From a virus: a stretch of 20,270 bases of DNA. A program made the position numbers and the translations under genes. Every line of letters begins with the position of its first letter. The stretch's first letter is position 1. Under the pieces are notes generated by a model, which saw nothing but the letters and a program-made list of their open reading frames with translations, did no database searches and had not been told where the DNA came from. Where the stretch lies: IMG/VR virus record IMGVR_UViG_3300027816_000498, positions 1-20,270 of that record. The stretch is one strand, 5' to 3'. Below, one piece after another: positions 3,419 to 19,604 of the stretch.

Positions 3419-3449
3419 CAAAGATAGTTACTCTTTTGATATTTCCAAA
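3419..3449 (-). promoter_or_regulatory. Leftward promoter 1 (Bacteroidota type)
   Basis: On the minus strand TTTG (3449-3446) is followed after exactly 19 bases by TATCTTTG (3426-3419). Both boxes and the spacing match the Bacteroidota primary sigma-factor pattern, and the same TATCTTTG box appears before the 4130 gene and groEL. Expected transcription start is about 3412. Confidence 0.65.
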
Positions 3450-3599: not shown

Positions 3600-3620
3600 T
3601 TATTGTAAAAAGTACAATAA
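3600..3620. promoter_or_regulatory. 8-5-8 palindrome, copy 1 (operator-like)
   Basis: TTATTGTA-AAAAG-TACAATAA: perfect 8-bp arms around a 5-base spacer. It is the first of three copies and lies about 16 bases upstream of a TATATTTG box (3636-3643). Its symmetry suggests binding by a dimeric protein. Confidence 0.7.
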
Positions 3621-3721
3621 GTAATCCTAGTAAAATATATTTGCAAAATTGGGAACAAAAAGGAAGCGAAAAGGGAACAAAAAACTATTGGCTTATAAAC
3701 TATGTTTGTGCGAATAGTTAC

Positions 3722-3742
3722 TTATTGTAAAATGTACAATAA
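3722..3742. promoter_or_regulatory. 8-5-8 palindrome, copy 2 (operator-like)
   Basis: TTATTGTA-AAATG-TACAATAA, with the same arms as copy 1. It begins 14 bases after a TATGTTTG box (3701-3708), a position where a bound repressor would cover the transcription start. Confidence 0.7.
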
Positions 3743-3753
3743 CATAAGATCAG

Positions 3754-3774
3754 TTATTGTAAAAAGTACAATAA
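3754..3774. promoter_or_regulatory. 8-5-8 palindrome, copy 3 (operator-like)
   Basis: TTATTGTA-AAAAG-TACAATAA, identical to copy 1. It starts 32 bp after copy 2, close to three helical turns, so two dimers could sit on the same DNA face. Confidence 0.7.
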
Positions 3775-3798
3775 GGTTAGTGTATGTTTAACACTAAG

Positions 3799-3819
3799 TT
3801 AGTTTACATTCTAAACTAA
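3799..3819. promoter_or_regulatory. 8-5-8 palindrome with variant half-site
   Basis: TTAGTTTA-CATTC-TAAACTAA has the same geometry as the three TTATTGTA sites but a different half-site (shared pattern TTAnTnTA). It may be a weaker site for the same protein or a site for another one. Confidence 0.55.
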
Positions 3820-3829
3820 GTTTCACTCT

Positions 3830-3950
3830 CGCGTGTGTGCGTGCGCGAGCGCGTGCGCCTATGTGTGCGCGTGCGCCTGTGCGCGTGTGCGCTAGACGTG
3901 CGTGTGTGTGCGTGTGTATGTGTGCGCGTGTGTATGCGTGTGCATATGCC
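3830..3950. repeat. Alternating purine-pyrimidine (GT/GC) tract
   Basis: About 120 bp of nearly unbroken pyrimidine-purine alternation (CGCGTGTGTGCGTGCGCG and so on), interrupted by a few steps such as CCT and TAGA. It lies within strongly AT-rich DNA. There is no fixed repeat unit, so it is not a simple microsatellite. Such sequence favours left-handed (Z) DNA under negative supercoiling. All frames through it give low-complexity Arg/Val/Cys or Thr/His/Arg strings, so it is non-coding. Confidence 0.8.
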
Positions 3951-4089
3951 TACAAAAACGCCAAAAAATCGGGCAAGGGCAGCCCAAACAGCACCCCCAC
4001 CCCTCGAAAAAAAAGTCACTTCCGGATCGCGGCCCGCTCCGCAAAACCGCTATAGTACCCAAACACTATAATTATTTAAAAACATTTTC

Positions 4090-4097
4090 TATCTTTG
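4090..4097 (+). promoter_or_regulatory. Rightward -7 box before the 4130 gene
   Basis: TATCTTTG, identical to the box in the best leftward promoter and before groEL, lies 32 bases upstream of the start at 4130. No TTTG is seen at the usual distance; instead there is a 6-8-6 inverted repeat (4051-4070), so the promoter may depend on an activator. Confidence 0.45.
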
Positions 4098-4129: not shown

Positions 4130-4378
4130 ATGAGAGTAAATGGAATCAAGAACAGTATTTACGGCAGTTATGCCGGAGGAGATGGGTTGACTATGAAGAA
4201 TGGTCGCCTGATTAACAATAGACCATGTGGAGAGACTGGTATCGCTGAGATGGCTAGGGCTAGGAAGATGGCGAAGTATGAGGAGAAGGTGAATATGATA
4301 GCGGAGGGATATGCACGTGGGGAGATGATGAGTGAGGCATCGGAGATGATGATGATGCCAATAAAGGGTAGGCGTTAG
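4130..4378 (+). CDS. Hypothetical protein, 82 aa
   Basis: Begins MRVNGIKNSIYGSYAGGDG and ends in a Met-rich, charged helix (GEMMSEASEMMMMPIKGRR). No family is recognised. It has its own promoter-like box upstream and a strong hairpin terminator downstream, so it is probably a single-gene unit, the first on the rightward side of the control region. The gene uses more G than the flanking intergenic DNA and has a clean frame, which supports coding. Confidence 0.7.
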   Translation: MRVNGIKNSIYGSYAGGDGLTMKNGRLINNRPCGETGIAEMARARKMAKYEEKVNMIAEGYARGEMMSEASEMMMMPIKGRR

Positions 4379-8277: not shown

Positions 8278-8535
8278 ATGCAACCAATAGGAAAATATAT
8301 AGTCGTATCGTCAATTGACGAGGAAATCAAAACAGATTCAGGCATCATCCTTTCAGGAGACGATGCCAGTCAGTTCAGATATAAAAAGGGCAAGGTAGTA
8401 AAACCTGGCACTGACGTATCTGTGATAAAAGAGGGTGACATTGTCTATTACGACAAGGGCTTCTCATTCACAATGATCATCAACAATGAGCAACATACAA
8501 TCATTCGGGAGAACGATGTCGTTGTTGTTTGTTAA
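8278..8535 (+). CDS. groES: Phage-encoded co-chaperonin GroES (Cpn10)
   Basis: The 85 residues fit the Cpn10 fold: MQPIGKYIVVSS for the first strands, a mobile-loop region with SGIILSG at 21-27 (the IIL tripeptide takes the place of the IVL that contacts GroEL), then KKGKVVKPG, KEGDIVYYDKG and a final IIRENDVVVV. It would cap the GroEL ring coded at 4777. It is slightly shorter than the bacterial protein (about 95). Its gene lies 1.9 kb after groEL instead of directly before it, as is usual in bacteria. It follows the SleB-like gene by 11 bases. The last 35 bases overlap the end of a convergent regulator gene. Confidence 0.9.
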   Translation: MQPIGKYIVVSSIDEEIKTDSGIILSGDDASQFRYKKGKVVKPGTDVSVIKEGDIVYYDKGFSFTMIINNEQHTIIRENDVVVVC

Positions 8536-8947
8536 AGTTGTTCATTTCAATAATCATATCTTTGTAAACCTTCTCGCTGTACCTAGCTTTCCTTTTTAGG
8601 AAGATAGGGTTATTGCATTTCTGCACAGGGATATCTTGTCCGTTTAGCTTTCTGTATAAGTCAGCAATGAGAAGCTTCCCCTTGTCACTCATTTGGTAGA
8701 TGGTAGCTCTCTGGCCTACCTTCTTTCGAAAGACTTCGAACCATCCGTCTCTGAGCATTTGGTCAAATCTTCGCTTGTTCCAGGGTAAAAGCCTCTCAAA
8801 GTCAGAGAATCGCTCTCTATTGAAGTAGCCTTCGGAATACATAAAGATTAAAACATCCAGTTCTGCCTGCGATATTTTGTGTTTTGCCTTGAAGTACTGA
8901 CGTATTACTTTGTAATATTTCAGATAATCTCTGGGTGGTGTAGCCAT
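8501..8947 (-). CDS. MarR-like winged-helix transcriptional regulator
   Basis: The 148-residue protein has the layout of a MarR-type regulator. An N-terminal helix is followed by KISQAELDVLIFMYSEGYF, then a helix-turn-helix (FERLLPWNKRRFDQMLRDGWFEVF, about 50-73) and a wing with KKVGQRATIYQMSDKGKLLIADLYRKL (75-101). It is the only leftward gene among the rightward ones. It diverges from the late operon at 9028 and its 3' end overlaps groES. Back-to-back TATATTTG boxes fill the 80-bp gap, so it could control itself and the late genes. The C-terminal 40 residues are basic and have no recognised motif. DNA target and ligand are unknown. Confidence 0.75.
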   Translation of the reverse strand: MATPPRDYLKYYKVIRQYFKAKHKISQAELDVLIFMYSEGYFNRERFSDFERLLPWNKRRFDQMLRDGWFEVFRKKVGQRATIYQMSDKGKLLIADLYRKLNGQDIPVQKCNNPIFLKRKARYSEKVYKDMIIEMNNFNKQQRHRSPE

Positions 8948-8974
8948 TTTTATTAAATTTTATTAAATTTTATA

Positions 8975-8982
8975 CAAATATA
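8975..8982 (-). promoter_or_regulatory. -7 box of the MarR-like gene
   Basis: TATATTTG on the minus strand, 28 bases before the start at 8947. It fits TAnnTTTG but has no clear TTTG at the -33 position. The leader downstream contains a repeated AAATTTAATAA. Confidence 0.45.
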
Positions 8983-8997
8983 ATCAAGAAAACTTAT

Positions 8998-9005
8998 TAT
9001 ATTTG
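8998..9005 (+). promoter_or_regulatory. -7 box of the late operon
   Basis: TATATTTG on the plus strand, 22 bases before the start at 9028 and only 15 bases from the opposing box. No clear -33 TTTG is visible, which suits a promoter that needs an activator. It could serve all genes from 9028 to beyond the window's right edge. Confidence 0.45.
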
Positions 9006-9027
9006 ACCGAAATAAAAAAATATTCAT

Positions 9028-16118: not shown

Positions 16119-16393
16119 GCAACAGAGAGCTAAAGCTTAAAATAATAAACTCTGGATACAAGGCCATAGAGGAATTGATAAAGGTTGCAGAGGAAAGTAT
16201 CATCACTCAGGAAGAGGGCGATATATCAGCAGATAAGTTAAAGAATGCAGCAGCATCCAAAAAGTTGGCAATATTTGATGCATTCGAAATACTCAGCAGA
16301 ATAGAATCCGAGAAAGAATCTCTTGATTACATAGAAAGAGGTATTAGTAAAGTAGACTCAAAACAAGGCTTTGCAGAAAGACGATCAAAATAG
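16115..16393 (+). CDS. Helical protein upstream of terL, candidate small terminase subunit
   Basis: The 92-residue protein is almost entirely helical by composition (MSNRELKLKIINSGYKAIEE, then SADKLKNAAASKKLAIFDAF and EILSRIESEKESLDYIERGI). Position directly before the large terminase and small size suggest a terminase small subunit, which recognises phage DNA. A standard helix-turn-helix is not evident, so this is a position-based inference. It overlaps the previous gene by ATGA and the terminase reading frame by 23 bases. Confidence 0.65.
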   Translation: MSNRELKLKIINSGYKAIEELIKVAEESIITQEEGDISADKLKNAAASKKLAIFDAFEILSRIESEKESLDYIERGISKVDSKQGFAERRSK

Positions 16394-19300
16394 ACTTTAT
16401 TATGTCGTGAAGGATTTAATTCCTTTAAATGCGATTACTAATAAAAATAGAGTTCGCTCTTGGCTGTACGGTTACAATGAGCAGTATGACGTTGTCGTCA
16501 TCTCAAAGAACGGTCAGATAGGCGAGGTTATAAATATCTCAGGGGTAAACATAGCCCTTCCTCCTGCACCAGAGAACTGCCGCAAAAGGAGTGACTCAAA
16601 AGCAGAACAATATTGGGAGCGTGTTCCTGTACCTAAAGAACTTGAGAAGATAAACTCAATCTTCCAATGGAATGAAAAGCCAAACGAGTTCAAAAATAAA
16701 TGGGTTGACTATATAGAGAATGAGTTCGATTATCGGGAACAAGGGTATTGGTTTATGAATAATGGGACTCCTTGCTATATCACAGGGTCTCATTATATGT
16801 ACCTGCAATGGTCAAGCATTGACGTAGGATATCCAGATTTCCGAGAAGCGAATAGAATCTTCTTCTTATTTTGGGAGGCTTGCAAAGCGGACCCAAGATG
16901 CTTCGGGATGATATACCTCAAGATAAGACGCTCAGGTTTCTCGTTTATGTCATCCTCCGAGTGCGTAAATCTCGCAACACTAGCAAAGGACGCTCGCTTA
17001 GGTATCTTGTCAAAGACAGGTGCCGATGCCAAGAAGATGTTTACCGACAAGGTGGTCCCAATCAACAACAAGCTGCCGTTCTTCTTCAAGCCAATAATGG
17101 ATGGTATGGACAAGCCAAAGGTAGAGTTGGCGTTCCGCGTTCCGGCATCGAAGATTACCAAGAAGAATATGCACGAGGTCAATAACAATGACATAGTCGG
17201 ATTGGATACTACTATTGACTGGAAGAATACTGAGGAGAACTCTTATGACGGTGAGAAGCTATTATTCCTAGCTCATGACGAATGTTATGCTCCAGAAACA
17301 AAAATACTAATGGAAGATTTTTCTTTCAGACAAATAAAGGATATAAACATAGGAGATAAAGTTATAGTTGATGGAGGTAAAATAAAAACTGTCGTAAAGA
17401 AAACTAGTGGTAAAACGGATAGGTATATTGTAAAACAACCTTATGGAGAAGATTATATTGTTACTAAAAATCACAGATTAGTATTTAATGAATACAAAAA
17501 AGGTGAGGTAATAATGAATCCAGAAGAGTATATAAATAGCTCAAAGTTTAGGAAGCAGCATCTAACAAGAGTAGTATCAAGGGGCATACAATCAGAAGAT
17601 TGCTTCAATGGAATACCCCCATATTTATTAGGTCTATGGCTAGGAGATGGAAGACAAAGTTCTTTTACGATATTGGTAAACAAAGAAGAAGAACCAGAAA
17701 TATTAACTTATTTAGGAAGACTTGCACAAATTAAAAATATTGAGTTTGATTTAAGAAAATCAACTTGTAAAAAAATAGTTGAATTTGCATTCAAGGGAAT
17801 AAATAAATCTTTAAGAGATATAGGAGTTTATAATAATAAACACATTCCAGAAGAATATATTAAATCTTCAATAGAATGCAGGCTTCAATTATTAGCAGGT
17901 ATTATTGAAACGGATGGATATTCTGATAAGAAAAAAGGAATTATATCTATAGGAATGAGCAGAGAAAAACTTATTGAACAAATAAGATTTATAGCTTTAT
18001 CTTGTGGTCTTAGTTGTAGTAAGATTAAATGCAAAAATACAAATTTTGGTGCGAAATCTTACAATATAAGTATATCTGGAGATTTATCAATTATACCTCT
18101 TATAACTAAAAAGAAATCATTCGAAGAATATTTTCCAAAAACAAGAGGAAGAAGAAATAAAGTATCTGTAGAATATCTTGATCAGGGTGAATATATAGGT
18201 ATTCAAGTAGATGCCGAAAACGATAACGAAAGAAGATTGATACTTGGAGATTTTACAGTTAGTATGAATAGTGGAAAATGGGTCAAGCCAAATAACATTC
18301 TTAACAACTGGCGTGTAACAAAAACGTGTTTGCGTTTGGGTAGCAAGATTATAGGCAAGTGTATGATGGGGTCTACCTCAAATGCCTTGAACAAGGGTGG
18401 TGACAACTTTAAGTCCTTGTACTATGACTCAAATGTAGAGAACAGGAATGCTAATGGTCAGACAAAGAGTGGGCTATACGCCTTGTTTATCCCGATGGAA
18501 TGGAATATGGAGGGCTTTATTGACAAGTATGGTATGCCTGTATTCAGGAAGCCTGAGAAACCAATAGAGGGAGTAGATGGTGGCAAGATATCAAATGGAG
18601 CGATTGACTACTGGGAGAATGAGGCAGCGTCACTAAAGAATGATGCCGATGCGCTGAACGAGTTCTATCGTCAGTTTCCAAGGTCAGAGTCCCATGCATT
18701 TAGAGATGAGAGTAAGCAGGCGATATTTAACCTGACTAAGATATATCAGCAAATTGATTACAATGACTCGTTAATTAAGGAGCAGTATTTGACAAGAGGG
18801 TCATTCTCATGGAAAGACGGAATTAAAGACACAAAGGTTGTATGGACTCCAAATAAACATGGAAGATTTTTAATTAGCTGGTTCCCTCCTGCGCATTATG
18901 CGAACAATGTGCATACAAGGAATGGAATGAAGTATCCAGGGAATGAGCATTTAGGGTCTTTTGGATGTGACCCATATGACATCTCAGCAGTTGTTGGAGG
19001 AAGAGGGTCAAGTGGATCGCTGCATGGGATGACAAAGTTCCACATGGATGACGCTCCAGTTAATGAGTTCTTTTTGGAATATATAGCAAGACCACAAACA
19101 GCAGAGATATTTTTTGAAGAGATACTTATGGCTTGCGTTTACTACGGAATGCCAATACTTATAGAGAATAATAAACCAAGGTTATTGTACCATTTTAAGA
19201 ATAGAGGATACAGAGGATTTTGTATGAACAGACCAGACAAGCAGTTGAACAAGTTGACAAAGACAGAGCGAGAGCTAGGTGGTATACCTAACTCATCTGA

Positions 19301-19604
19301 GGATGTCAAGCAGTCTCATGCCTCTGCAATCGAGTCATACATCGAGAAGTTTATAGGATTTGATTATACCGGTGCATATAGAGAACCTGACGTAATTGGC
19401 AATATGCCATTTACAAGAACACTTGAAGATTGGGCAAAGTTTGATATAAATGACAGGACTAAATTTGACGCTGCAATCAGCTCAGGATTAGCAATTATGG
19501 CAAATCAGAAACACCTTTATATGCCAGAAAAGAAAGAATCAAAAATAATTATTAACTTTGCCAGATATACAAACGATGGGTTAACAAGTCAAATAATGAA
19601 ATGA
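16371..19604 (+). CDS. terL: Terminase large subunit precursor interrupted by an intein
   Basis: A 1077-residue precursor. Removing the intein (residues 305-633) leaves 748 residues, a plausible terminase size. The ATPase part has a Walker A-like KIRRSGFS at 184-191 and a Walker B KLLFLAHDE ending at Glu304. The nuclease part has FGCDPYDIS (Asp867) and ILIENNKP (Glu932), fitting an RNase H-type nuclease. The enzyme cuts concatemeric DNA and pumps it into proheads at the portal. The only upstream start candidates in frame are TTG 16371 and GTG 16407; no ATG is available near. TTG 16371 would overlap the preceding gene by 23 bases. The portal gene follows with an ATGA overlap. Identification as TerL is strong; the exact start is not. 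Confidence 0.9.
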   Translation: MQKDDQNRLYYVVKDLIPLNAITNKNRVRSWLYGYNEQYDVVVISKNGQIGEVINISGVNIALPPAPENCRKRSDSKAEQYWERVPVPKELEKINSIFQWNEKPNEFKNKWVDYIENEFDYREQGYWFMNNGTPCYITGSHYMYLQWSSIDVGYPDFREANRIFFLFWEACKADPRCFGMIYLKIRRSGFSFMSSSECVNLATLAKDARLGILSKTGADAKKMFTDKVVPINNKLPFFFKPIMDGMDKPKVELAFRVPASKITKKNMHEVNNNDIVGLDTTIDWKNTEENSYDGEKLLFLAHDECYAPETKILMEDFSFRQIKDINIGDKVIVDGGKIKTVVKKTSGKTDRYIVKQPYGEDYIVTKNHRLVFNEYKKGEVIMNPEEYINSSKFRKQHLTRVVSRGIQSEDCFNGIPPYLLGLWLGDGRQSSFTILVNKEEEPEILTYLGRLAQIKNIEFDLRKSTCKKIVEFAFKGINKSLRDIGVYNNKHIPEEYIKSSIECRLQLLAGIIETDGYSDKKKGIISIGMSREKLIEQIRFIALSCGLSCSKIKCKNTNFGAKSYNISISGDLSIIPLITKKKSFEEYFPKTRGRRNKVSVEYLDQGEYIGIQVDAENDNERRLILGDFTVSMNSGKWVKPNNILNNWRVTKTCLRLGSKIIGKCMMGSTSNALNKGGDNFKSLYYDSNVENRNANGQTKSGLYALFIPMEWNMEGFIDKYGMPVFRKPEKPIEGVDGGKISNGAIDYWENEAASLKNDADALNEFYRQFPRSESHAFRDESKQAIFNLTKIYQQIDYNDSLIKEQYLTRGSFSWKDGIKDTKVVWTPNKHGRFLISWFPPAHYANNVHTRNGMKYPGNEHLGSFGCDPYDISAVVGGRGSSGSLHGMTKFHMDDAPVNEFFLEYIARPQTAEIFFEEILMACVYYGMPILIENNKPRLLYHFKNRGYRGFCMNRPDKQLNKLTKTERELGGIPNSSEDVKQSHASAIESYIEKFIGFDYTGAYREPDVIGNMPFTRTLEDWAKFDINDRTKFDAAISSGLAIMANQKHLYMPEKKESKIIINFARYTNDGLTSQIMK
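17283..18269 (+). mobile_element. Intein with LAGLIDADG homing endonuclease inside terL
   Basis: The 329-residue insert begins at Cys305 (CYAPETKILMEDF, splicing block A). It contains VTKNHRLVF (block B, T-x-x-H) and ends IQVDAENDNERRL...GDFTVSMN before Ser634. It carries two LAGLIDADG-type motifs: LLGLWLGDG (419-427) and LLAGIIETDG (507-516), so it is a full-size homing intein. Splicing would join ...AHDE to SGKW..., restoring the ATPase site. The residue before the final Asn is Met, not the usual His. The DNA is more A/T-rich than the flanking terL, which fits separate ancestry. Confidence 0.9.

Follow-up and report, generated by a model that had tools for sequence, protein, structure and literature searches.

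What recognizes the array of palindromes that separates two divergent gene blocks of a phage genome, and what does the phage gain from it? We addressed these questions in a complete IMG/VR record of 20,270 bases (hereafter, the window), for which a preliminary description had read the array as operators for a dimeric regulator or as iterons for an initiator protein. Our analysis confirmed that the palindromic array is real and supported the first of these readings, a set of several operators for a dimeric regulator. In sequence and geometry, the sites match NrtR-family operators.

The left gene block of the window runs leftward and encodes GP88 and DUF1281_C proteins, and the right block runs rightward and encodes GroEL, a MazG-like protein, a class II synthetase-like protein, GroES, and the terminase. 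The nearest known genomes were an uncultured podovirus (MW202828) and the Flavobacterium elemo phages (~60 kb). Based on these relatives and on the TAnnTTTG promoter boxes, the host presumably belongs to Bacteroidota. The terminase ORF (positions 16371–19604; 1077 aa) exceeded its counterparts in relatives by ~330 aa (G016, 748 aa) and seems to be disrupted by an intein that includes a LAGLIDADG-like region.

Structure and distribution of the array

The coordinates of the array and of the surrounding elements are given in Table 1. Three perfect TTATTGTA-N5-TACAATAA dyads, two of them starting 32 bp apart, and a further palindrome of equal geometry with TTAGTTTA arms had been described previously, and all were found as stated. 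We additionally identified a fifth dyad that had been overlooked, TTAGTGT-N7-ACACTAA, so that the last three dyads (starts at 3754, 3777, and 3799) follow one another in steps of 23 and 22 bp. With up to three mismatches allowed, the window gave four matches, whereas 0.41 would be expected from shuffled sequences, none of which yielded that many. As the preliminary description had already noted, such sites were absent from positions 8948–9027.

Table 1. Elements of the divergent spacer of the window and its surroundings (a dot marks elements without strand; scores refer to the matrix of cellular NrtR operators)
Feature	Position	Strand	Score	Remarks
A-type dyad TTATTGTA-AAAAG-TACAATAA	3600..3620	.	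22.3	
A-type dyad TTATTGTA-AAATG-TACAATAA	3722..3742	.	21.6	
A-type dyad TTATTGTA-AAAAG-TACAATAA	3754..3774	.	22.3	
B-type dyad TTAGTGT-ATGTTTA-ACACTAA	3777..3797	.	24.5	exact TTAGTGT-N7-ACACTAA; best score in the window
C-type dyad TTAGTTTA-CATTC-TAAACTAA	3799..3819	.	11.6	21-bp geometry as the others; rank 5 in the window
D-type inverted repeat around AAACTAT...ATAGTT	3685..3720	.		internal TATGTTTG box; also in L080, L083, L087, L088, L091
Leftward (early) promoter, -7 box TATCTTTG	3419..3426	-		-33 TTG at 19 bp; like boxes in L080, L082, L085, L086, G016
Rightward (late) promoter, -7 box TATCTTTG	4090..4097	+		~270 bp from the array
G+C-rich tract	3828..3950	.		65% GC; 90% purine-pyrimidine alternation; adjoins the array on its right
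First ORF of the late block	4130..4378	+		82 aa; conserved in relatives

Records of relatives identified through GroEL had as many as ten sites each, nearly all of them in one spacer. These sites were of type A (TTATTGT arms, one half frequently being weaker), type B (TTAGTGT arms), or type C, and their number, type, and orientation varied among relatives: L082 had C sites only, and L085 a single B site. In the two related genomes with end repeats, G014 (66.9 kb) and G016 (60.7 kb), the genes formed two opposed blocks with a single divergent spacer that held the array, and the GC skew changed direction nearby. Because longer related records had their sites in this intergenic region alone, except for sporadic matches with one mismatch, the many genome-wide copies that would have refuted the reading of the preliminary description did not appear within the phage. 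The array was patchily distributed in the family, since G014 was about as far from G016 in primase identity as relatives without an array, and no gene exclusive to the array phages was found. In the array-less L104, L103, and L117, G+C-rich tandem repeats (CATGATCCCGG and CAGGCAGG) occupied the same spacer.

Similar arrays recurred in unrelated phages. Besides the terminase type of the window, four others occurred among phages with B-site or mixed-site arrays, namely phrog_5989 (G038 and G041, putatively crAss-like as judged from terminase and gene order), phrog_6681 (G034), phrog_2 (G040), and phrog_38 (L346 and G042). In G042, six sites followed one another with gaps of 2 bp, and one more lay close by. 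No match to the array was found among cultured phage records.

Correspondence with cellular NrtR operators

Members of the NrtR family combine a Nudix effector domain with a winged-helix DNA-binding domain. NrtR itself is responsive to ADP-ribose and regulates NAD genes; pentose genes are controlled by AraR and XylR, the family members of Bacteroidota. We scanned 84,980 bacterial and archaeal genomes for TTAGTGT-N7-ACACTAA followed within 32 bp by TTAKTGT-N7-ACAMTAA and obtained 16 loci. Pfam analysis of their neighborhoods identified NrtR itself (NUDIX and NrtR_WHD; L459, L446, and L450), NadA (L448 and L454), isochorismatase/nicotinamidase (pncA; L447, L456, and L460), and NAPRTase (L457), and the double TTAGTGT-N7-ACACTAA site adjoining these genes was therefore regarded as an NrtR operator.

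A matrix built from 29 cellular sites ranked the five dyads of the window as its top five. Four of them (21.6–24.5) exceeded every maximum obtained in shuffles (median 6.1, highest 15.7), whereas the C-type dyad lay within the range of these maxima and is perhaps a site for a paralogous regulator. The agreement with the matrix is partly circular because the cellular sites had been found with a similar pattern; the gene neighbors and the AraR gel-shift sites are free of this circularity. XylR has also been assigned to the NrtR family (PMC3878776). AraR of Bacteroides thetaiotaomicron (BT0354) has a 21-bp motif, with tandem sites 3 bp apart in most genomes, and the oligonucleotides used in BtAraR gel shifts contain AGTGTATTTGATACACC, AGTGTTACTTTTACACC, and AGTGTAAAAAAGACACT (PMC4666351). 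The phage sites share with the Bacteroides AraR sites the 21-bp semipalindrome, the AGTGT-N7-ACAC core, and the 3-bp tandem gap (also seen in L469), whereas the AraR sites lack the flanking TTA...TAA and stand before arabinose operons, next to araR. The AGTGT-N7-ACACT core of the 21-bp dyad was exact in the B-type dyad of the window, and each A-type dyad departed from it by one base per half.

The phage sites share with cellular NrtR operators a 21-bp palindrome, TTAGTGT-N7-ACACTAA, that occurs in pairs in cellular genomes, but many phage copies have TTATTGT arms. The A/A form (TTATTGT...ACAATAA) was absent among the cellular double sites, although the pattern allowed the A form in the second site, and A-containing double sites were mixed A/B only. 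A strict A-type tandem pattern likewise had no match in bacterial genomes, whereas the B-type pattern matched. Our searches yielded no genome of Bacteroidota in which the sites have exactly this form; when five plasmid loci of Bacteroidota that encode NrtR homologues were inspected, sites were present at one, the ara operon of Bacteroides finegoldii, in the AraR form. The absence of cellular A/A sites and of an exact Bacteroidota counterpart is the weakest part of the case. Taken together, these comparisons make it quite probable that the B-type sites are NrtR-family operators; for the A-type sites the same assignment is probable, with somewhat less confidence.

Two further properties set the phage sites apart from cellular NrtR operators. 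The phages hold 3–10 copies far from start codons: the distance to the next start codon was mostly 250–750 bp for phage arrays and mostly 3–50 bp for cellular operators. In the window, the gene starts on either side are 311 and 633 bp away from the array, and no site close to a regulated NAD or pentose gene, as in an NrtR regulon, was found there; the array of L476 has a possible small ORF at a distance of 13 bp. Moreover, the phages carry the sites without a regulator gene and without NAPRTase, the one NAD gene family searched. NUDIX and NrtR_WHD gave no match in 27 phage records, some of them fragments, which included the genomes with end repeats (G014 and G016) and the long records G006, G015, and G038, so that an NrtR-type regulator in the same genome was found in none of the 27; control genomes, Bacteroides ihuae among them, were matched by the same searches. 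NAPRTase was absent from the 16 phage records searched. NrtR-type sites without a phage repressor suggest that a host repressor is probably bound or soaked up.

Promoters of the divergent spacer

All ten spacers in the comparison (10/10) had a rightward TAnnTTTG box ahead of the late block, and most members of the window group had a leftward one with a -33 TTG at ~19 bp. The conserved promoters of the window family were free of overlap with A or B sites; in the window, the array is ~150 and ~270 bp away from them. The TAnnTTTG boxes at 3636 and 3701, to which the preliminary description had drawn attention, both exist, but they lack a -33 TTG at the usual distance, and the box at 3701 sits within a separate inverted repeat (Table 1).

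Candidate binding factors encoded by the phage

The palindromes might instead be recognized by a protein of the phage, as operators or as origin iterons, for which we considered a winged-helix-like protein, a stand-alone DnaA domain IV protein, and the primase-helicase. The winged-helix-like protein (8501–8947), previously put forward as a MarR-like regulator of the array, is encoded opposite to the late block, overlaps the 3' end of the groES ORF, and has 78 distinct homologues in the family. It was, however, universal in the family, in relatives with and without an array, no recognition residues shared by the array phages were noticed, and we rejected it. The DnaA domain IV protein (PF08299; ~100 aa; L179:9216–9521 and relatives L187–L216) is encoded in the early block of longer genomes, often with a second copy. 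It appeared promising by virtue of a signature helix that differs in the array clade from that of most relatives and of a TTAT-N half site, but it too occurs in array-less relatives, and two array groups with identical sites have different signature helices, so that this candidate was also rejected. In the fetched parts of the other array phages, the winged-helix protein was not found and the DnaA-like protein was present in only one. Conservation of both proteins in the family and the change in sign of the GC skew near the array speak for a phage-encoded binder, although transcription alone could produce the latter. Against iterons, the gaps between dyads were irregular (2–28 bp), without the regular spacing and single orientation of iterons, the A sites were reversed between two groups of relatives, and the B form is that of the cellular NrtR operator; a DnaA-box cluster was found in the corresponding spacer of none of 14 array-less relatives. 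A phage-encoded binder would also leave the match to cellular NrtR operators unexplained, and we consider it unlikely.

Two further explanations do not involve such a protein. The dyads could form RNA folds, as hairpins or terminators in a leader transcript, but the 60 distinct phage sites depart from pairing by 60 mismatches against a single G-U, which indicates that RNA pairing is not what is kept; the stems are A+T-rich and a terminator scan found none at the sites, making this reading very improbable. CIRCE elements for HrcA came into consideration through the downstream groEL gene and the TTAG with which the B and C arms, like CIRCE, begin. The CIRCE pattern TTAGCACTC-N9-GAGTGCTAA was nevertheless absent from the window even at three mismatches, and this possibility is close to negligible.

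A possible decoy or metabolite-sensing switch

A host NrtR-family repressor most likely binds the phage palindromes. It would recognize the array as operators, and every replicating phage genome would add several sites, titrating the repressor and relieving the repression of host NAD-salvage or pentose genes. Titration of repressors by multicopy operators is used in synthetic biology, and the same principle would apply to the phage array, with the difference that the putative decoy is natural, lies in phage genomes, and would be directed at a host regulator. We found no report in the open-access literature of a natural decoy for a host regulator in a phage genome. Both binding by a host protein and titration are deduced, and the decoy is preferred but unproven; as a whole, the statement that the palindromes are operators for a host NrtR-family repressor and that the array acts as a decoy is tentative, its probability falling somewhat short of even. 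The preference over a promoter operator comes mainly from the distance of the arrays from start codons, with which action at a distance would still be compatible. With copies this few (3–10), the strength of a decoy would hinge on the numbers of repressor molecules and of phage genomes.

The main rival is that the host repressor, once bound to the array, couples the divergent early and late phage promoters to the NAD/ADP-ribose or pentose status of the host. The array of the window family lies in the early/late divergent spacer, and those of G038, G041, G034, and G040 likewise lie between divergent gene blocks, a location that fits a regulatory role equally well and that we counted against the decoy, together with the short distance between the L476 array and its possible ORF. 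In several members of the window group, moreover, a TATRTTTG box stands just before A2, which would then directly follow its start point. This box, however, lacks a -33 element and is missing in the G011–G014/G017 group, and the conserved promoters are ~120–450 bp from the sites. Near relatives also differ in the number and position of sites; such turnover, together with the change in orientation, would be expected if number outweighs position. We regard a metabolite-sensing switch as possible but doubtful. If a host NrtR-family repressor does bind, these phages would tap the NAD or pentose regulation of the host through non-coding DNA alone, without an enzyme or regulator gene. With NAD a resource contested in phage defense, an operator decoy of natural origin, or else a phage switch that senses NAD, would then amount to a novel mode of takeover. 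A broader form of the decoy reading, in which several unrelated phage lineages acquired arrays of host NrtR-family operators that raise the supply of NAD or pentose and possibly counter NAD-depleting defenses, is conceivable, albeit somewhat doubtful.

Additional elements of the spacer

The G+C-rich tract beside the array contains strictly alternating purine-pyrimidine runs, the longest of 54 bp, within an otherwise A+T-rich spacer and is predicted to be Z-DNA-prone; similar tracts adjoin the array in L082, L083, L091, and the G011–G014 group. D-type inverted repeats of the form GTAAACTAT-N9/10-ATAGTTTAC were found in the same spacer of the window (Table 1), L080, L088, and L091, and ATGCAACA...TGTTGCA dyads in that of L080, L082, L086, and L090; both might serve additional regulators as operators. 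A block with ACCCCCACCCC and A-runs (positions 3955–4060), which lies between the late promoter of the window and the G+C-rich tract, was conserved in distant relatives.
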